64,000 nucleotides of DNA from Hartmannibacter diazotrophicus (GTDB lineage: Bacteria; Pseudomonadota; Alphaproteobacteria; Rhizobiales; Pleomorphomonadaceae), in NCBI RefSeq assembly GCF_900231165.1, contig NZ_LT960614.1, positions 3,597,501 to 3,661,500 of the forward strand. Reading direction: 5' to 3'. Below, piece by piece: positions 6,889 through 49,390 of this stretch; the first letter of the stretch is position 1; every line of letters begins with the position of its first letter. The position numbers were made by a program, and so were the translations under genes. The notes beneath the pieces were generated by a model, which saw nothing but the letters and a program-made list of their open reading frames with translations, searched no databases and was not told the DNA's origin.

Positions 6889-7174
6889 ACTGCGGCCGCA
6901 TGGCGTGAGCCGGCCTCTTGCGCGCAGTCTTTGAGCCTGCCTTCGCCGGCCTCGTGTCCGGGGCGGTTTCCATGCGCCCGCTGTGGCGGAGAATCATGGA
7001 CACCAGCGCCGCGATCTGAAACGCGAAGGATGCAAGCAGCGCTTGACCGATGCCAAATCCGAGCATGCCGATCAGGGCGGCGACGAAAAGGGCACCAAGC
7101 AGCACGCTGAACAGACCGCCACGCAGGCCAAGCCCGAACCCGCAAAGGGCAGCAAGTGCAACTGAAACAGACAT
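6887..7174 (-). CDS. Small membrane protein, unknown function
   Basis: A predicted 95-residue protein. Residues ~1-62 are almost entirely hydrophobic and form two or three helices rich in Gly, Ala and Leu. A basic tail follows (RPAKAGSKTARKRPAH). The ATG at 7174 has GAGGAA 8 bp upstream, which supports translation. An inverted repeat lies 62 bp upstream of the start. I do not recognise a family. Confidence 0.55.
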   Translation of the reverse strand: MSVSVALAALCGFGLGLRGGLFSVLLGALFVAALIGMLGFGIGQALLASFAFQIAALVSMILRHSGRMETAPDTRPAKAGSKTARKRPAHAMRPQ

Positions 7175-7235
7175 CGGTCGTCTTCCTCAGCGAAACTTCG
7201 ATGTCCGTATAGTGGCACAATGGACTTACATCCTT

Positions 7236-7265
7236 GTTAAGTAATGGGGAAAACGCCCGCTTAAC
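7236..7265. promoter_or_regulatory. Inverted repeat in the divergent promoter region
   Basis: GTTAAG / CTTAAC arms with inner complementary GGG/CCC around an AAAA centre. It sits between the minus-strand small gene (start 7174) and the plus-strand sugar transferase (start 7551). The rest of the 7175-7550 interval has no gene; it could hold the promoters for both. Confidence 0.35.
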
Positions 7266-7550
7266 AGGAATGGTCGCATTTGTGCCGTCATCGGAGGCAA
7301 TTTGTTAGGCAAGGTTTGACCGGAAGATTCGGCATCCCGACTCGGCGTTGGGAGCGGTAGCCAAACTGCCACAGTCTCCAAGCATCCTGTCGACCGAGCT
7401 CAAAATGCGTTGCATTGGAAGGGCCATATGCTTTATAACTCGTTAAAACCTAGGCAAAAAAATTACTGCAAAGGCATTAAGAATTTTCGGGAATGCCCTC
7501 AGCAATGCAACGACGCTCGTCTCCTGCGTTGAGTGAAGGAGTTGGGTTGA

Positions 7551-8441
7551 ATGCAGAATGAGGACAGCATCTATTTTCTCGGTCTGGTGGCTGATTCATC
7601 TCCTCGCGCAGCCGGAAGCGATTCTTCAGAGGATAGCTTTCACTCGACTTTGAACGAGACGAACGATCATGCCGTATCCGGCGGAGAGGGAGAGCAGCGA
7701 CCAAATCCCACGGTTTCTGCGACTGGAGGCATTTTTAACGTGCTGTCGTTCATCAATTTTAACGCAAGTACAGACATGACCTCGACGCTCGGGCGCAATA
7801 GCAGCAGCCTTGATAAGAAGTTGTCGCCCAGGGTCATCCAACTCAAGATCAAGCGCGCGATCGACGTTGTCTTCGCGCTGCTCGGACTATGGTTTCTCTC
7901 GCCGCTCTTCATCGCAGTCGCCTGCCTGATCAAGCTTGAGAGCCGCGGACCGGTCTTCTTCCGTCAGGACAGAACGGGCCTTGACAATTCCACCTTCGAA
8001 ATTCTCAAGTTCCGTACGATGTACCTTGATCTGTGCGACTTCTCCGGGGTCGAGCAGACCGCGCCGAACGATGCCCGCGTGACGCGGATCGGGCGCGTCC
8101 TGAGGCGGACCAACATCGACGAACTGCCCCAGTTCATCAACATTCTGCGGGGCGACATGTCCCTCATCGGGCCGCGGCCGCATGTGCCCAACATGCTTGC
8201 CGCCGATCTGCCCTACGAGGAACTGGTCGAGAATTATCCTTTGCGCCACATGGTACGCCCGGGCCTCACCGGCCTTGCCCAGTCCCATGGTCTCCGCGGC
8301 CCGACGATCGACAGGGGCCCTTCCGTCAAGCGCATCGAATACGACCTCGAATATATCGAACGGTTCTCTCTCTGGCTGGATCTGGAGATCATGGTGCGGA
8401 CCGTCATCCGGGAACTCAAGAACTGCGGCCAGGGGTTCTGA
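7551..8441 (+). CDS. Polyprenyl-phosphate sugar-1-phosphate transferase (ExoY/WcaJ family)
   Basis: A 296-residue enzyme that would transfer a hexose-1-phosphate to undecaprenyl phosphate, the first membrane step of exopolysaccharide or O-unit assembly. Residues ~1-95 form a Ser/Asn-rich non-conserved head. One membrane hairpin lies at ~105-130. The bacterial sugar transferase core follows, with KFRTMY near residue 148, DELPQFINILRGDMSLIGPRP near 190, and RPGLTGLAQ near 240. The ATG has AAGGAG 9 bp upstream. A metallophosphatase follows after 65 bp. No glycosyltransferases or polymerase genes are adjacent, so this is an orphan priming enzyme. Sugar identity is unknown. Confidence 0.88.
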   Translation: MQNEDSIYFLGLVADSSPRAAGSDSSEDSFHSTLNETNDHAVSGGEGEQRPNPTVSATGGIFNVLSFINFNASTDMTSTLGRNSSSLDKKLSPRVIQLKIKRAIDVVFALLGLWFLSPLFIAVACLIKLESRGPVFFRQDRTGLDNSTFEILKFRTMYLDLCDFSGVEQTAPNDARVTRIGRVLRRTNIDELPQFINILRGDMSLIGPRPHVPNMLAADLPYEELVENYPLRHMVRPGLTGLAQSHGLRGPTIDRGPSVKRIEYDLEYIERFSLWLDLEIMVRTVIRELKNCGQGF

Positions 8442-8506
8442 GGCCGTAACGAATTACTAAGCTTTAGGCTTGAACGTCGGCGGGGGCTCACGCAAGCTCG
8501 TATCGA

Positions 8507-32674: not shown

Positions 32675-33754
32675 TCACCGGGGCGCCGAAGGATCGCGCG
32701 CCGACCGGATGAGGTCGTGCACGAATCCGAGTTTTTCCTTCACCGGCTCCGACAGGATGAACGGATAAAGGTCCGGCTGGCCCATGCTGCGGCTGAGGCT
32801 GTTCATCGCCACCGTCAAAGGCACCCAGGGTTCGATCAGGTCGTCGACCCTTTCCGTGTGATAGGGATTGGCGGCCATCGGGCTCTCCAGCCCGTCGCCG
32901 ACATCGACATGCGCCCGGATAGCGATCCCGTAACTGCGCGCCGTCTCCAGACCATCGACCATGTGGACATAATGGGCGAAGGTCTCGGCGAAATCCTCCC
33001 ACGGATGGGCCGAGGCATAGCTGCTGATGTGGTGCAGGGGCCAATCGGCGCGCGGCCCCTGTTCGTAGTGCTGCTCCAGGGCCTCGCCGTAGTCGGCCCG
33101 CTCGTCGCCGAAGATGTGCCGGAATCCGTCGAGCCGGCCGCCGTCCCGCACCAGCAGGTTCCAGTAGAAGTGCCCGACCTCATGGCGGAAATGGCCGAGA
33201 AGGGTGCGATAGGGCTCGGCCATCGCCGTCCGCCGACCTTCCCGCTCGACATCGTCCGCCTCGGCGATATTGATCGTGATGAGGCCGTCCTGATGACCCG
33301 TCATGACCGGCTCGACCGTGCCGTCCGGCTTCGTCACGTCGGCCATGAAATCGAAGGCCAGGCCTTCATTCGGGTCCTCCGTGCGGCTCGGCATCGGCAG
33401 TTGCCAGCGGGTCAATGAATAGAAGAGGTGACGCTTGGCCCGCTCCAGCTTCACCCAGCGGGTCTGGTTTTCCGGCTGCGTCAGATCGGGGACGGTCTGG
33501 TTGTGACGGCAGGCGGCGCAAAGCCCCGGGCCATGCCTGGCGGGAAGCAGCCAGTTGCAGGCGTCCCTTTTGGCATTGTCGCAGAAGAAATAGGAGCCCC
33601 CGTCGATCAGGGCCCGCCAGACGCCATTGTCCTCCTCGACGGCAGACATGCCGGCAAGGCCCGGGATATAGCCGAGCCAATGGCCGCATTGGAGACACGC
33701 CGTGTTGTCGAAGTGGACGGCATTGCCGCAGGACTGGCACTCGAAAATCTTCAT
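32675..33754 (-). CDS. Zinc-ribbon HExxH metallopeptidase-like protein
   Basis: A 359-residue protein. The N-terminal four-Cys zinc ribbon is CQSCGNAVHF and CLQCGHW (residues ~5-28), with a second Cys cluster CDNAKRDACNW and CAACR (~60-90). A gluzincin-like HEVGHFYW motif lies near residue 190 and has a downstream Glu/Asp in GDERADYGEAL. This matches the zinc-binding metallopeptidase family often annotated DUF in rhizobia. ATG at 33754 is preferred; an in-frame GTG lies 18 bp earlier. It converges with the cyclase gene (22 bp apart). Substrate is unknown. Confidence 0.82.
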   Translation of the reverse strand: MKIFECQSCGNAVHFDNTACLQCGHWLGYIPGLAGMSAVEEDNGVWRALIDGGSYFFCDNAKRDACNWLLPARHGPGLCAACRHNQTVPDLTQPENQTRWVKLERAKRHLFYSLTRWQLPMPSRTEDPNEGLAFDFMADVTKPDGTVEPVMTGHQDGLITINIAEADDVEREGRRTAMAEPYRTLLGHFRHEVGHFYWNLLVRDGGRLDGFRHIFGDERADYGEALEQHYEQGPRADWPLHHISSYASAHPWEDFAETFAHYVHMVDGLETARSYGIAIRAHVDVGDGLESPMAANPYHTERVDDLIEPWVPLTVAMNSLSRSMGQPDLYPFILSEPVKEKLGFVHDLIRSARDPSAPR

Positions 33755-33862
33755 GGAACCAACATCTCTCACCGCAGCCCGCCGCTCGGATGCCTTCCTA
33801 GCATCCTTTTGAAGCAGCGGGGCAACGGTTGAGGCCTGCCGAAGGTTCCAGGCCGAGTGGCA

Positions 33863-34399
33863 TTACCCTTGGCCGAAGCTCACTTCCGAGGCATCGCTCT
33901 CGTCCTTGAGCGCCCGTGCGTTGGCAAAGTCCAGCCGCTCCACGCGCTTTCCATCGTGATAGACGAAGGCGAGTTGACGCCGGCGCGAGGCAAGCTGGGC
34001 CGGCAGCGGATCGTAGCGAACGCCCTGCCCCCCCAGCAGCGGCACGACCGACCCGACATCCGTCAGATCCTCGATCTCGACGCGCAGGAGATGCAGTCGC
34101 CGCCCCTCTTCGTCGACGCCGACGAACGGAATTCCCGCAAGCCGCAGGAAGCTCGTGACGTCGGATGTCGTCGCGAAGCTCTCGACGAAGGTCTTCTCCA
34201 CGAGGTCGAGGTCGCGCTGCGCCGGCGGCGGCTCGTGGACGTGGTCATGCGGCAGATGCGGCGTCTGCCACTGCGTCGTGTCGCGGCCGCCGTTGTGTCC
34301 CGGGCCAACGTGCGAATGCCCGTGGCCGTGGTGGTGATGGCCATGCGCATGGCTGTGCGCATGCGAATGGCCGTCATGATGATGGTGGTCGTCGTGCAT
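33863..34399 (-). CDS. Histidine-rich protein, candidate nickel chaperone for guanidinase
   Basis: A 178-residue protein. About half of its first ~55 residues are His, in runs such as DDHHHHDGHSHAHSHAHG, as seen in nickel-storing HypB, SlyD and UreE. Residues ~60-175 form a compact domain (VEKTFVESFATTSDVTSFLRL; LHLLRVEIEDLTDVGSVVPLL) of no family I recognise. It starts 41 bp after the guanidinase stop on the same strand and is last in the riboswitch-controlled operon. Characterised guanidinases need Ni2+ and HypA/HypB-like helpers; none is seen here, so this protein may fill that role. That is inference from composition and context. Confidence 0.75.
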   Translation of the reverse strand: MHDDHHHHDGHSHAHSHAHGHHHHGHGHSHVGPGHNGGRDTTQWQTPHLPHDHVHEPPPAQRDLDLVEKTFVESFATTSDVTSFLRLAGIPFVGVDEEGRRLHLLRVEIEDLTDVGSVVPLLGGQGVRYDPLPAQLASRRRQLAFVYHDGKRVERLDFANARALKDESDASEVSFGQG

Positions 34400-34440: not shown

Positions 34441-35649
34441 TCAATAGGCCACCGGCTTGTCGATGAGATGCTTGTGGCTGCCGAGCTTGCCATTGGCGAC
34501 CATCGACCCGAGCGCCTCGACGATCACGCGGGTGCCGAAGAGCGCCGTGATGTCCGAGGTGTCGTAGGGCGGACTGACCTCGACGACCTCGAGGCCGCAA
34601 AGGCCTTCCGCAGCGACGAGACCGAGGATCTTCAGCGCCTCGCGCGGCAGGAAGCCGCCCGGTTCCGGCCAGCCGGTGCCCGGCACGAAGCCGCAGTCGA
34701 TGCTGTCGACGTCGAAGGAGATATAGACCGCGTCGGCATCCTTCCAGGCGAGTTCGAGGGCGATCTCGGCGGTCTTTTCCAGGCCGATCCGCTCGATATC
34801 GTCGATCGTCAGCACATTGGTGTTGCGTTCGCGCCCGACCTTCACGCCGTCGCGCGGCACCTGCCAGCCGCCGATACCGAGCTGGACGAGGTTCGTCGCC
34901 GGCACGTTCGGCATGTTGGTCGCCCAGAACCACGGCGTCGTGTGCATCCGCTCGTCGAGATCCTTTTCCTGGATGTCGATGTGGCGGTCGAAGTGGATAA
35001 TGCCGATCTTCTTCGAGGTGCACTCGGCGATGCCGCGCACGCAGGGAAAGCCGATGGAGTGGTCGCCGCCGATCATCACCGGCAGCGCGCCAGACGAGAA
35101 GACATGCGCGACGCCGCGCGTGATCTGGTCGAAGCTCTTTTCCAGGTTGCCCGGGATCGTGAAGACGTCGCCGGCATCGCACAGCGTCATCTGTTCGCGC
35201 AGGTCGACGCCCATCTCGTAGTTGTAGGGCGTATAGAGCGCGGAGATGCGGCGCACGCCCTGCGGCCCGAAGCGGGTGCCGGGGCGGTAGGTCGTGCCGC
35301 TGTCGAAGGGAATGCCGAGGACGGCGGCGTCGTATTTGGCGACGTCGCGGACGTTCTCCACGTATGGCGCCTTGAGGAAGGTGTTGATGCCGGCGAAATG
35401 CGGCAGTTCCCCGCGCGCAAAGGTCGGGATCGACTTGTCGGTGAGGCTTTCCGCCCCCGGCAGGCCCATCTCCAGCGCCCACTTGCGCTCGCGCGCCCAG
35501 CCCTTGCCGGAAAGCTCGGCCTCGGCCTCCAGCGCCCTCCAACCCTGGGTCTCCAGCTTGTTGAAATCGGGATGGTGGCGGCGGGACCGCCCGGCCACCT
35601 TGGTGATGCCGGCCCTTTTGGCTTGACGGACGGGACCATGCGACATCAT
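34441..35649 (-). CDS. gdmH: Nickel-dependent guanidinase (agmatinase/arginase family)
   Basis: A 402-residue ureohydrolase, longer than agmatinases (~310) because of an N-terminal extension of ~80 residues, as in Synechocystis GdmH. Metal ligands are intact: GGDHS, then HFDRHIDIQ (the D-x-H-x-D triad with Arg in place of the usual Ala), and SFDVDSID. The segments ERMHTTPWFWATNM and VPGTGWPEPGG also fit the guanidinase branch as I recall it. The product would be urea plus ammonia from guanidine. The ATG overlaps the ATPase stop, and the operon begins with a guanidine-I riboswitch, which strongly supports the substrate. No urease is visible in this window. Confidence 0.87.
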   Translation of the reverse strand: MMSHGPVRQAKRAGITKVAGRSRRHHPDFNKLETQGWRALEAEAELSGKGWARERKWALEMGLPGAESLTDKSIPTFARGELPHFAGINTFLKAPYVENVRDVAKYDAAVLGIPFDSGTTYRPGTRFGPQGVRRISALYTPYNYEMGVDLREQMTLCDAGDVFTIPGNLEKSFDQITRGVAHVFSSGALPVMIGGDHSIGFPCVRGIAECTSKKIGIIHFDRHIDIQEKDLDERMHTTPWFWATNMPNVPATNLVQLGIGGWQVPRDGVKVGRERNTNVLTIDDIERIGLEKTAEIALELAWKDADAVYISFDVDSIDCGFVPGTGWPEPGGFLPREALKILGLVAAEGLCGLEVVEVSPPYDTSDITALFGTRVIVEALGSMVANGKLGSHKHLIDKPVAY

Positions 35650-36446
35650 GCAACGCTCCTTGCTTCTTCTTGGGCCTCGGTAACCGGAGGCAGCGGTTTG
35701 GAAAATCCGAGAACCGGGACAGCGGAGCCCGGATCGAGGTCAAAGTCGTAGGTGATCTTGGCGCCATAGCGGCCGGGGGCCTGCGGATCGACGCGCGGCT
35801 TGTCGAAGGCGACGACCCGCGTGCCGAGCCCGAAGGCTTCCTTCAGGTCGTGGGTGACCATGATCACCGTCATGCCGCAGTCTTTCCAGATCGGCTTGAT
35901 GAGGGCATGCATCTGCGCCCGCGTGCCGGGGTCAAGCGCACCGAAGGGCTCGTCCAGCAGCAGAACCTTCGGCCTTTTCGCAATGGCCTGGGCAATGGCC
36001 AGACGCTGCATCTGGCCACCGGACAGCAGCGAGGGATATTTGCCGCCATGTTCGCCGAGCCCCACTTCCTCGATCAGCCCGCGCGCCTCTTCGAGCGCGG
36101 CGCGGCGGCGTGCGCCGAAGAGTTTGCCAAGGAAGGGACTTGCCGAGAATTCGAAGGCGGCCAGGACATTTTCGAGCGCGGTCAGGTGCGGAAAGACGGA
36201 ATAGCGCTGGAAGACGACGCCACGGTCGGGACCCGGCTCACCGGGCAGCGGCTCGCCGTCGAGCAGAATCTGCCCCCGTGTCGGCCGCTCCTGCCCCAGC
36301 ACCATGCGCAGGAAGGTGGACTTGCCGCAGCCGGAGGGACCGACGACCGACAGGAACGCACCCGAGGGAATTTCGAGGTTCAGACCCTCGATGACGATCT
36401 GGTCGCCATATTCCATCCAGACATCGCGGACCGAGATCGCACTCAT
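35646..36446 (-). CDS. NitT/TauT-type ABC transporter ATPase (guanidine operon)
   Basis: A 266-residue ATPase: Walker A GPSGCGKST near residue 38, signature LLSGGQMQR near 145, Walker B VLLLDEPFGALD near 165, and H-loop VTHD. It belongs to the nitrate/taurine/bicarbonate group. It overlaps the guanidinase start by 4 bp and the permease stop by 1 bp. It is proposed to energise guanidine uptake because of the riboswitch at the operon head. Confidence 0.92.
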   Translation of the reverse strand: MSAISVRDVWMEYGDQIVIEGLNLEIPSGAFLSVVGPSGCGKSTFLRMVLGQERPTRGQILLDGEPLPGEPGPDRGVVFQRYSVFPHLTALENVLAAFEFSASPFLGKLFGARRRAALEEARGLIEEVGLGEHGGKYPSLLSGGQMQRLAIAQAIAKRPKVLLLDEPFGALDPGTRAQMHALIKPIWKDCGMTVIMVTHDLKEAFGLGTRVVAFDKPRVDPQAPGRYGAKITYDFDLDPGSAVPVLGFSKPLPPVTEAQEEARSVA

Positions 36447-37267
36447 CAGCGGGCCTCCTGCACGTAGGCCCAGGGGAAGCCCCAGCGGGCGAGCCGCGCA
36501 AGAGCGAAATCGAGCACATAGGCGATCAGCGTGATCCAGGCGACATAGGGCAGGATGGTGTCCATGGCGAGGTAGCGCCGGACGAGAAAGATACGGTAGC
36601 CAAGGCCGTTCTCCGCCGCGATGGCCTCGGCCGAAATGAGAAACAGGAAAGCCGGCCCGAGCGACAGGCGAAGCGCTTCCAGAAGCCTTGGAAAGGTCTG
36701 GGGCAGCGCCACCCGAAGCGTCGTCTGCCAGGTGGAGGCGCCGAGCGTCTGCGCCTTGATCATCTGCTCGCGCGGAATGGCCCCCACGGTCATCGCAAGA
36801 TCGCGCATCAGGAAGGGCGTGATGCCGATGACGATCAGCATCACCTTGGACAATTCGCCAAGGCCGAAGACGATGAACAGCACCGGCAGGATCGCCATCG
36901 GCGGGATCATGGACAACACCGCGACCAGCGGCCCGAGGCCGGCGCTTGCCGTCGGCAGCATGCCGAGAAGAAGACCGAAGCCGAGGCCGATGGCCGCGGC
37001 AAAGCCGAGCCCGAGACCCAGCCGCTGCAGACTGGCTGCCGTATCGGCCCAAAGCACCAGCGTGCCCGACCGCTTGTCCGGCTCCGTGGCAAGCCGTGTC
37101 ACGGTCGTCGCCATTTCGGAAACCGGTGGCAACAGCTTGTCGTTCGGGTTCACCGCCCGCCGTTCGGCCGAGCCCGTGACATAGAGGAATGCGATCAGGA
37201 CGAAGGGGATCAGGGCAAGGAAAAACCGTGCCCCCTTCCCCGGCACGACGTTCATGGCGCGTCGCAT
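36446..37267 (-). CDS. NitT/TauT-type ABC transporter permease (guanidine operon)
   Basis: A 273-residue inner-membrane permease with six helices. The EAA loop reads MIKAQTLGASTWQTTLRVALPQ (within residues ~170-195), which is typical of SsuC/TauC/NrtB. ATG at 37267 follows GAGGAG at a good distance; an in-frame upstream start lacks one. A long periplasmic segment after helix 1 (~35-75) is usual for this group. It lies between the solute-binding and ATPase genes. Confidence 0.92.
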   Translation of the reverse strand: MRRAMNVVPGKGARFFLALIPFVLIAFLYVTGSAERRAVNPNDKLLPPVSEMATTVTRLATEPDKRSGTLVLWADTAASLQRLGLGLGFAAAIGLGFGLLLGMLPTASAGLGPLVAVLSMIPPMAILPVLFIVFGLGELSKVMLIVIGITPFLMRDLAMTVGAIPREQMIKAQTLGASTWQTTLRVALPQTFPRLLEALRLSLGPAFLFLISAEAIAAENGLGYRIFLVRRYLAMDTILPYVAWITLIAYVLDFALARLARWGFPWAYVQEAR

Positions 37268-37383
37268 CAGCCTGTCTCCTCTTTGGTCAACGGTTCGTTC
37301 CATTGGCGATTGAGAGGGAGTGCCAGGGGGCAGCCCCCTCCCATTTCGCCATCAGGCAAGGATGAATGGCCTGGAGAAAGCGA

Positions 37384-38475
37384 TCAGAGCTTTCCTTCGG
37401 CGGCCATCTCCATGTAGCTCGGATCGAAGCGCAGCTTCACGTTGCCCTCGTCGCCAAGCACCTTGCCGCCCGGAAAGCCGATGCCGATGACATCGGGGCT
37501 CGGAGCGCCATCACCGAGGAGACCATGGTCGAAGGAGAAGGTGCGCACGTGATCCATCGTCGTCACCAGATCCTCGCTCTTGGTGAAGGCGACCGCATCG
37601 GCAGCGCTGGAGAAGAGCTTGGTGGCGGCAAGCTGCGCGTCGTAGCCGGCCATGTCCGTGCCCGACATCTCGCCCATCGCGGCCCTTGCCTTCTGGCCCG
37701 CTTCCGCCTGGTCGATGACCAGCGCCATGGTCTCATACCAGGCCCCGGCGAGAGCCTTGCCGAAATCGGGGTTGTCCTTCAGCGTCTCCGTGTTGACGGC
37801 GAGCATGTCGATGATCTCGCCCGGGATCTGGGAGGAGTTGAAGACCTCGGTCGCACCCGGCTCGGCCTTCACCTCGGCCAGCAGCGGGTTCCAGGTCACG
37901 ACCGTCGTCGTCTCGGGCGCCTTGAAGGCGGCGACCATGTCCGCGTCGGACGTGTTGACGACCGTCAGGTCCTTCTCCGAAAGGCCGGCCGTATCGAGCG
38001 CGCGGGCGAGCAGATAGTGCGACACCGAAAGCTCGACCAGATTGACGGTCTCGCCCTTGAGGTCCGCCACCGACTTCGCGGTCTTGGAGACGATGCCGTC
38101 GTTGCCGTTGGAGAAGTCGCCGACGATGAGCGCCGTGGTGTCGACGCCGCCGGCCGCCGGGATCGTCAGCGCATCCATGTTCGTCACCGTCACGCCGTCG
38201 AATTTGCCGGCCGTGTACTGGTTGATGGACTCCACATAATCGTTGATCTGCGTGACGTTGATCGTGAGGCCGTATTTGTCGGCCCATTTCTTCACGATGC
38301 CTGCGTCCGCCGCATAGGGCCACGGCATCCAGCCGACGTAGATCGTCCAGGCGATGTTGAATTCCTTCTTCGCCTCGGCCGCCGCCGGGGTCATGCTCGC
38401 CGCAAGCCCGATGGCAAGACCTGTCGCGGCGAGAGTGAAGGATCGGGCGAAGCTGGAAAATGTCTTGGTGCGCAT
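37384..38475 (-). CDS. NitT/TauT-type solute-binding protein, predicted guanidine-binding
   Basis: A 363-residue periplasmic protein. The signal peptide covers residues ~1-34 (cut near PAAAEA). The fold is the ABC solute-binding type of the nitrate/sulfonate/bicarbonate family: FNIAWTIYVGWMPW at the N-terminus, then GKFDGVTVTNMDAL and AWYETMALV. It is the first gene behind the guanidine-I riboswitch, so its likely ligand is guanidine or a guanidinium compound; ligand residues cannot be proven by reading. 116 bp separate it from the permease gene. Confidence 0.88.
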   Translation of the reverse strand: MRTKTFSSFARSFTLAATGLAIGLAASMTPAAAEAKKEFNIAWTIYVGWMPWPYAADAGIVKKWADKYGLTINVTQINDYVESINQYTAGKFDGVTVTNMDALTIPAAGGVDTTALIVGDFSNGNDGIVSKTAKSVADLKGETVNLVELSVSHYLLARALDTAGLSEKDLTVVNTSDADMVAAFKAPETTTVVTWNPLLAEVKAEPGATEVFNSSQIPGEIIDMLAVNTETLKDNPDFGKALAGAWYETMALVIDQAEAGQKARAAMGEMSGTDMAGYDAQLAATKLFSSAADAVAFTKSEDLVTTMDHVRTFSFDHGLLGDGAPSPDVIGIGFPGGKVLGDEGNVKLRFDPSYMEMAAEGKL

Positions 38476-38578: not shown

Positions 38579-38695
38579 AGCCTCCCGGGCTTTTGTCCCG
38601 CCGTGGACCCGTCGGATGTCTCTCCGGCGGGGCGTTTCTCTCGGACCAGCCGTGCCGCAATGCTTCGATTGCCTGCACCGGAACCCTAGAAACTT
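38579..38695 (-). ncRNA. Guanidine-I (ykkC) riboswitch
   Basis: Reading the minus strand, the conserved ykkC blocks occur in order and spacing: CTAGGGTTCCG (38689-38679), GGTCCGAGAG shortly after (about 38648-38639), ACGGCGGGACAAAAGCCCGGGAGG at the 3' end (finishing at 38581; key core AAAAGCCCGGGAG). These nucleotides form the guanidinium pocket and helices P1-P3 in solved structures. It lies ~100 nt upstream of the solute-binding protein gene. I see no clean intrinsic terminator after it, so it may act on translation or by another route. Confidence 0.95.
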
Positions 38696-39109
38696 CCCGA
38701 AGTATAGGGCCGCCCCACCAAATCGAAAGCCGCAAGTCTGTGCAAGGGAGGTCAAATAATAATCTCTCTGCCCATAATTTATACGCATCACAAATCCGCC
38801 ATCGATTGATGTAAAGAAATCTGCGTAGAGTGAGTGATCGGGAAATCGAACCTGAGGCCGAGACGAGATCGGATCAAATTTTCCGAATATTGTTCTGCAT
38901 CCCGGCGCAATCTAGTCTTTCCAGACTTGAATTTAATGTCGGCTGAATTGCCGAAACAGGCGGAATTCACCGGCAAGTCCGCGCTCAGGCAGCCCTCTCG
39001 CGGGCGAACTCTCGGACAGCCATGCAGATTGTTTGACGAAACGATCCGCCCGAATTTCCTGTCAGCGCACGGAAGCGGCGCACGCCATGCCTTCAACGGG
39101 AGTTGCGAC

Positions 39110-48733: not shown

Positions 48734-49232
48734 GCCAATTCTCCGTGTTCAAGAACAGGGGAGAATGGCCTGCCGTCCTTCGCTGGGATGAAACGGCACC
48801 CACACCAACAGGGTCCCGGAATTTGCCAGGGCACCCGATTGGAGAGAGTGCTGCATCCCTTCCTTCCGGCATGAAACTGCAGCGCGTGCGACAACGCGAC
48901 GCCAACGCTCACCGTGAAAGGCATCGTCCGTCACATACGTTTCGTTTTGTCCACGTCGGAAAGGCAAGGTGTCAGGCCACTCAATTGTCACTCAGTCCGA
49001 CATCGCAGCTCCTTGAGCTGCCAGAGGGGCCCGGCCTGATAAAAACGTAAGTGTATTCGCGGATCATCCGTTTCAAGGCCGCAGTGAAAATTTTTTGTGA
49101 GGCGCACTCGCGGAAGGATGACGGGCTTTCATGGCAGGCGACCATGCCCATCATTCAGCCCCGGCCTGCCGAAATTGAGGGCTTCGCGAATTCGATTTTC
49201 CGGGTTAGCATTCTCGAGTCGTCAACGTATTG
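48734..49232. other. Intergenic interval upstream of terC
   Basis: No supported gene in ~500 bp. It contains the terC promoter and the upstream region of the leader ORF at 49248. Open frames on both strands are overlapping shadows without ribosome-binding sites. Confidence 0.45.
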
Positions 49233-49247
49233 AAAGGAGGTGATCCA

Positions 49248-49322
49248 GTGTCTCATTGTCATAATCCGCAGGTGCTGGGCACCTCGGCTGAGAACGTCGC
49301 CTTCAGGGGGCGTTCTAGCTGA
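49248..49322 (+). CDS. 24-codon leader ORF with a perfect extended Shine-Dalgarno
   Basis: A GTG start at 49248 is preceded by AAAGGAGGTGATCCAG (49233-49248). This is complementary over 16 nt to the usual 3' end of 16S rRNA and has AGGAGG 7 bp from the start. The predicted peptide has 24 residues, begins MSHCHNPQVLG and ends RGRSS. Within and after it are mutually exclusive pairings: AGAACG/CGTTCT (49291-49316) versus GGGGGC/GCCCCC (49306-49335). A strong hairpin follows. This is the layout of a translation-dependent attenuator for the membrane protein gene at 49500. I do not recognise the peptide; expression is inferred from the ribosome site only. Confidence 0.6.
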   Translation: MSHCHNPQVLGTSAENVAFRGRSS

Positions 49323-49354
49323 GGGTTTTGCCCCCGCTTTGCGGATGGCAATGG

Positions 49355-49390
49355 AAGGGCTGCCCGGGCGGGCGGCCCTTCTTGCGTTTT
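49355..49390 (+). terminator. Hairpin after the leader ORF
   Basis: AAGGGC-T-GCCC / GGGC-G-GCCCTT stem (11 pairs including one wobble) with a GGGC loop at 49355-49380, followed by CTTGCGTTTT. This looks like an intrinsic terminator or attenuator 110 bp before the gene at 49500. Confidence 0.65.

Follow-up and report, generated by a model that had tools for sequence, protein, structure and literature searches.

The guanidinase GdmH of Synechocystis and a related metformin hydrolase (MefH/DmgH) are nickel-dependent enzymes that are activated by HypA/HypB-type chaperones (PMC11399263, PMC12186494). These helpers are encoded beside the ureohydrolase that they are proposed to load, and HypA/HypB-like proteins are the only nickel route to a guanidinase that has been described. 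The guanidinase of N. inopinata was under-loaded with nickel when it was made without chaperones, its loading mechanism was called "unclear", and no chaperone for the guanidinase was found in comammox Nitrospira (PMC11410670). Other nickel proteins also carry His-rich segments. UreE, a small protein, combines a His-rich tail with a folded part that is separate from it, and the disordered His-rich segments of SlyD, Hpn and Hpn-like are proposed to store or buffer nickel. The tail of UreE is dispensable for urease maturation, whereas that of SlyD matters (PMC7055735).

Here we describe a His-rich protein (referred to below as the partner) that is encoded next to a guanidinase in the 64,000-nucleotide stretch of Hartmannibacter diazotrophicus DNA that was analysed, which we call the window. 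The relatives Methylobrevis and Chthonobacter place the genome in Pleomorphomonadaceae, order Hyphomicrobiales. Like the HypA/HypB helpers, it is encoded beside a ureohydrolase that is presumably nickel-dependent, and it is a candidate for loading that enzyme. The database annotation of its gene is "hypothetical protein" only. We found no mention of the protein in the open-access literature that was searched, and the link between the two proteins is new to the literature and databases that we searched.

The guanidine operon and its enzyme

The operon lies on the minus strand and runs from a guanidine-I riboswitch through an ABC importer and a guanidinase to the His-rich protein. The riboswitch aptamer at its head (38580-38700) scored 77.1 bits with Rfam RF00442, whose gathering score is 63. 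The substrate-binding protein of the importer (37384-38475) matched the NCBIfam "putative urea" family TIGR03427 with 561.9 bits (cut-off, 333.9), and guanidine is probably its ligand here. The genes for the permease (36446-37303; PF00528) and the ATPase (35646-36446; PF00005; coordinates taken from the open reading frame ending at 35646) follow. The ATPase gene overlaps the ends of the permease and guanidinase genes by 1-4 bp, and the junctions of the operon are overlapping or short. The final gene, at 33863-34399, is an open reading frame with an ATG start that encodes 178 amino acids and is located 41 bp 3' of the guanidinase gene on the same strand. An earlier reading of the DNA (the original prediction) had proposed this gene without giving its strand and had placed it in one transcript with the guanidinase; the gene is real, and its position at the end of a single riboswitch-headed operon shows co-regulation with the enzyme by the guanidine-I riboswitch.

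The upstream enzyme (34441-35649, minus strand; 402 amino acids; PF00491) is a guanidinase by sequence. Its best PDB matches were 7esr and 7oi1, which are Synechocystis GdmH (E 8e-164), followed by 9fek, the comammox guanidinase of N. inopinata (E 7e-160). The residues that define guanidinases (Thr105, His222 and Trp313 in N. inopinata numbering; PMC11410670) are present as T120, H236 and W327. The likeness to these three structures, together with the guanidine-I riboswitch, suggests that the window enzyme hydrolyses guanidine and depends on nickel.

Two other features of the window are recorded here. A gene for a metallopeptidase with zinc-ribbon and Peptidase_Mx domains (32675-33772, minus strand) lies 3' of the partner gene on the same strand; the relatives that were read did not show it at this position, where HupE often stands instead. 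Two Rfam matches lie near each other, a terC RNA motif (48988-49042, minus strand) and the sRNA CC2171 (49224-49379, plus strand).

A His-rich tail and a folded domain

His accounts for 17 of the first 31 residues of the partner and for 22 of its first 58 codons, or about 40%, so that the earlier figure of half of the first 55 residues was an overstatement. The His codons are divided evenly between CAT and CAC (11 each), indicating that the stretch is not a simple DNA repeat. An artefact of chance or low complexity is ruled out by this even usage, by a frame that is intact in nearly all relatives and by the conserved folded domain. In Methylobrevis pamukkalensis the partner gene (L038 10364-10780) is split across two frames by a frameshift or a sequencing error, and the guanidinase there is intact and 91% identical to that of the window.

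In the alignment of 51 homologues used to describe motifs and domains, the family has a variable His-rich N-terminus that ends in GHN, then a linker, and then a conserved domain. The tail of the window protein comprises residues 1-36 (34292-34399, minus strand) and is predicted to be disordered, with pLDDT values of 52-60 across residues 1-50 of the AlphaFold2 model; G34, H35 and N36 at its end are kept in 46-48 of 50 members. The linker motif is QWQTPH in subfamily A, where alone it is kept (residues 43-48 of the window protein; 34256-34273, minus strand), and DHLHSHxH in subfamily B, which is 25-30% identical to subfamily A.

The tail carries 7 to 31 His residues, with a median of 17, in 106 loci (related copies included), and almost every member, throughout about 18 families, has kept a His-rich tail. 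The tail is short or missing in two homologues: that of G837 (L194 3967-4326) contains only a few His residues, and that of G816 (L195 about 8141-8480) practically none. Both genes are directly 3' of a guanidinase. The folded domain must therefore carry the conserved function, and the tail appears to be a common but optional nickel collector, in parallel with the dispensable tail of UreE and in contrast to the tail of SlyD.

The original prediction could not place the C-terminal part and proposed structure prediction for it. The AlphaFold2 model gave a confident domain at residues about 59-165 (33905-34225, minus strand), in which two helices are followed by a small beta barrel with pLDDT mostly above 90. 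F71, F75, D80, L104, P120 and P133 are invariant, and conservation chiefly concerns hydrophobic, Pro and Gly positions, plus D80, R86 and R140. No conserved Cys or His site was found in the folded domain among the aligned family members, so that the domain would seem to be a module for docking or assembly and not one that binds metal.

The domain has no family that can be assigned to it. No relative of the partner emerged from Pfam, NCBIfam or PDB sequence comparisons that used the protein or the profile, and none of the 19 members tested had a Pfam match at E<=1, HypA, HypB/CobW, UreE and FKBP included. The best Foldseek E value was 0.035 for the whole model and 0.096 for the domain alone. 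The best VIA match (Z 5.5) was to kinetoplastid mitoribosome proteins over about 41-43 residues, and Tudor/SH3-like barrels appeared at Z 3-4. The Foldseek and VIA lists for the domain contained no UreE or other nickel chaperone, an absence that is compatible with a shared fold, and their matches were all weak (E >= 0.096, Z <= 5.5). Because all fold matches are below the level that would exceed a common small barrel, we made no family assignment.

The sequence comparisons place the partner outside HypA, HypB and UreE. HypA (PF01155) has a Cys4 zinc site, whereas the window protein is free of Cys and no HypA match was found in the 19 members. The window protein also has no P-loop and no Pfam or NCBIfam GTPase match. 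Some HypB proteins have a His-rich N-terminus, including that of the window genome itself, but HypA/HypB are two proteins and the partner is one. UreE differs in that its tail is C-terminal, whereas that of the partner is N-terminal; UreE has conserved metal-binding His at its dimer interface, whereas the folded domain of the partner has no invariant His, the 19 members have no UreE match, and the partner is linked to guanidinase rather than to urease. The partner lacks a match to an FKBP domain, which sets it apart from SlyD, and it differs from Hpn in its conserved folded domain and in its link to one particular enzyme.

Linkage of the partner to guanidinase

A homologue of the partner was present in all 80 alphaproteobacterial guanidinase loci (75-91% identity) and was directly 3' of the enzyme in 79 of them; the loci include related strains and so cannot be counted as independent. 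At the sole non-adjacent locus, in Jiella endophytica (L072 17233-17700), the partner is about 7 kb off on the opposite strand. An independent search of 397 genomes of the order that started from the partner gave 40 matches, one of which (G341; E 7.5e-4, internal stops) was spurious and was set aside; the 39 carriers that remain represent 27 genera from about 18 families. Guanidinase was present in 39/39 carriers, and the 397 genomes contain 41 guanidinase-like genes. The partner lies directly beside guanidinase in the 30 carriers for which the wider neighbourhood was read and, judged by coordinates, at a distance of a few hundred bases in the remaining ones. In a sample of 349 genomes of Pseudomonadota the identical six genomes hold guanidinase and partner, and in an alphaproteobacterial sample of 200 genomes, the seven with guanidinase all have the partner. 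In Sinorhizobium fredii NGR234 both genes are on NC_012586.1, guanidinase at 389835-391037 and the partner at 389321-389638. The original prediction had named a neighbourhood survey as the test that could refute it, if homologues were mostly found away from guanidinase; they almost always adjoin it. The comparison of genomes thus establishes a strong, close to absolute association of the partner with guanidinase.

One genome of the 200-genome sample that has no guanidinase (G815) holds an orphan piece of the partner domain (L192 about 7060-7350), which is degenerate and probably a relic. The low-scoring match in G807 (E 0.005), whose neighbours are lipA and E3 dehydrogenase genes, was set aside.

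Guanidinase-like genes without the partner occurred in only two genomes of the order sample, G371 (L155 8848-10077) and G156 (L156 9177-10508). These ureohydrolases are 57-58% identical to guanidinase, have Ser in place of the diagnostic Trp (PGTGSPEPGG) and carry their own His-rich N-terminal extension fused in cis. Both genomes have a LysR-type regulator nearby, and neither locus gave a guanidine riboswitch; in G156, HupE is the next gene. These enzymes possibly act on a different guanidino substrate and have a metal tail in cis.

The partner follows the enzyme and not the transporter. The ABC genes are absent in 16 of the 80 loci, which retain guanidinase and partner. In the three ABC-less loci that were checked (L050, L055 and L082), the guanidine-I riboswitch is immediately 5' of guanidinase, indicating that riboswitch, guanidinase and partner form the minimal unit. 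The identity matrices of guanidinase and partner were correlated across 69 loci (rho 0.76, against 0.13-0.32 for the ABC genes), but within subfamily A the contrast was gone (0.36 against 0.28-0.46), so that the matrices show only the A/B subfamily split, which is common to partner and guanidinase and is not seen in the ABC proteins.

Nickel supply and the proposed role of the partner

A gene for a HupE/UreJ nickel permease (PF04955) was found at 38 of the 80 loci; in 30 it lies 3' of the partner, and in the other 8 it precedes guanidinase on the 5' side. In the window, none adjoins the partner. This frequent neighbour is a membrane transporter and not a homologue of the partner, and the metformin hydrolase operon is likewise flanked by a HupE gene (PMC11399263). 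Together with the known nickel dependence of characterised guanidinases, the HupE/UreJ neighbours indicate nickel as the metal concerned.

The original prediction noted that the operon has no HypA/HypB and proposed that the partner is a solution different from the described one. The first statement is true for the operon, and within the 80 loci no HypA or HypB was found except for two weak GTPase matches; however, the window genome has both elsewhere, in a cluster of hydrogenase genes at a distance of 3.2 Mb (C1:444846-446047), and they, like the UreG of this genome, could contribute to the nickel supply in this strain. The second statement therefore rests on the relatives and not on this genome alone. 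Among 28 carriers, and counting matches above the cut-off, HypB was absent in 20 and HypA in 19, with neither present in 19. Consequently, HypA/HypB cannot serve these enzymes as a general helper.

The His-rich tail, the HupE neighbours and the linkage to one client suggest that the partner works like a nickel chaperone, which would bind nickel, dock on the enzyme and deliver or insert the metal. We consider it rather probable that the partner is a nickel accessory protein dedicated to guanidinase that acts without a GTPase and without HypA/HypB. In the mechanism that we propose, Ni2+ would be imported, where needed, by the co-encoded HupE/UreJ permease, the flexible N-terminal tail would collect it in the cytosol, and the folded C-terminal domain would dock on the (apo)guanidinase. 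The partner would thereby increase the nickel occupancy of the di-metal centre, in a loading step that would proceed without GTPase and HypA/HypB. We hold more tentatively the fuller reading of the partner as a nickel insertion factor that consists of one protein, needs no nucleotide, combines a new small docking domain with a disposable His tail that feeds it, and may have replaced HypA/HypB throughout alphaproteobacterial guanidine metabolism.

The domain could instead bind the guanidinase hexamer to assemble, stabilise or gate it, with a tail that is secondary or metal-sensing. Such a structural, folding or regulatory role would fit a domain that stays constant and has no conserved metal ligands while the tail ranges from 31 His residues to almost none, and it would fit a gene that follows the enzyme rather than the transporter. 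We nevertheless regard it as unlikely, given the retention of His-rich tails by almost every homologue in about 18 families, the frequency of HupE as a neighbour and the help with nickel loading that characterised guanidinases need (PMC11399263, PMC11410670).

It is less probable still that the partner only stores or buffers nickel, holding Ni2+ during growth on guanidine while insertion is spontaneous or proceeds via UreE/UreG or HypA/HypB. The window genome also has UreG, and UreG-like genes in most of the carriers tested could serve such a route; HypB and SlyD have His-rich regions that are similar in composition to the tail and have been proposed to serve for storage (PMC7055735). However, strict one-to-one linkage to a single enzyme would not be required of a free store, and the homologues without a tail remain linked to guanidinase.

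A part in nickel or guanidine transport, for example as a protein that assists HupE or the ABC importer from the cytosol, is suggested by the operon shared with the importer and by the HupE genes adjacent in 38/80 loci, but it is highly improbable, since the partner is kept in the 16 loci without ABC genes and in 42/80 without adjacent HupE, and its A/B split goes with guanidinase. Equally improbable is the handling of Mn2+ or Zn2+, whether this serves the enzyme or detoxification: the crystal of the N. inopinata guanidinase held one Ni and one Mn (PMC11410670) and His-rich tails bind several metals, but the HupE/UreJ neighbours and the chemistry of the GdmH family favour nickel.

The partner family is thus a testable candidate for the loading of many guanidinases of Hyphomicrobiales and other Alphaproteobacteria, in groups that include Sinorhizobium, Mesorhizobium, Bradyrhizobium and Ancylobacter. 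If the reading as an insertion factor is true, nickel ureohydrolases would have a third route to their metal. Co-expression of the partner could yield guanidinase with a full nickel load, for use in biochemistry or in the removal of guanidine.

Beyond Pseudomonadota, where the sample consisted of plasmid records, the actinobacterial guanidinases (Rubrobacter, Nonomuraea) had neither the partner nor HypA/HypB beside them, which indicates that some guanidinases do without a helper of this kind and have other routes, or none. On the Rubrobacter indicoceani plasmid (L174 5974-8762), the guanidinase-like gene has no nickel helper next to it and is followed by a sodium:solute symporter gene and, further on, by formamidase and urease genes.
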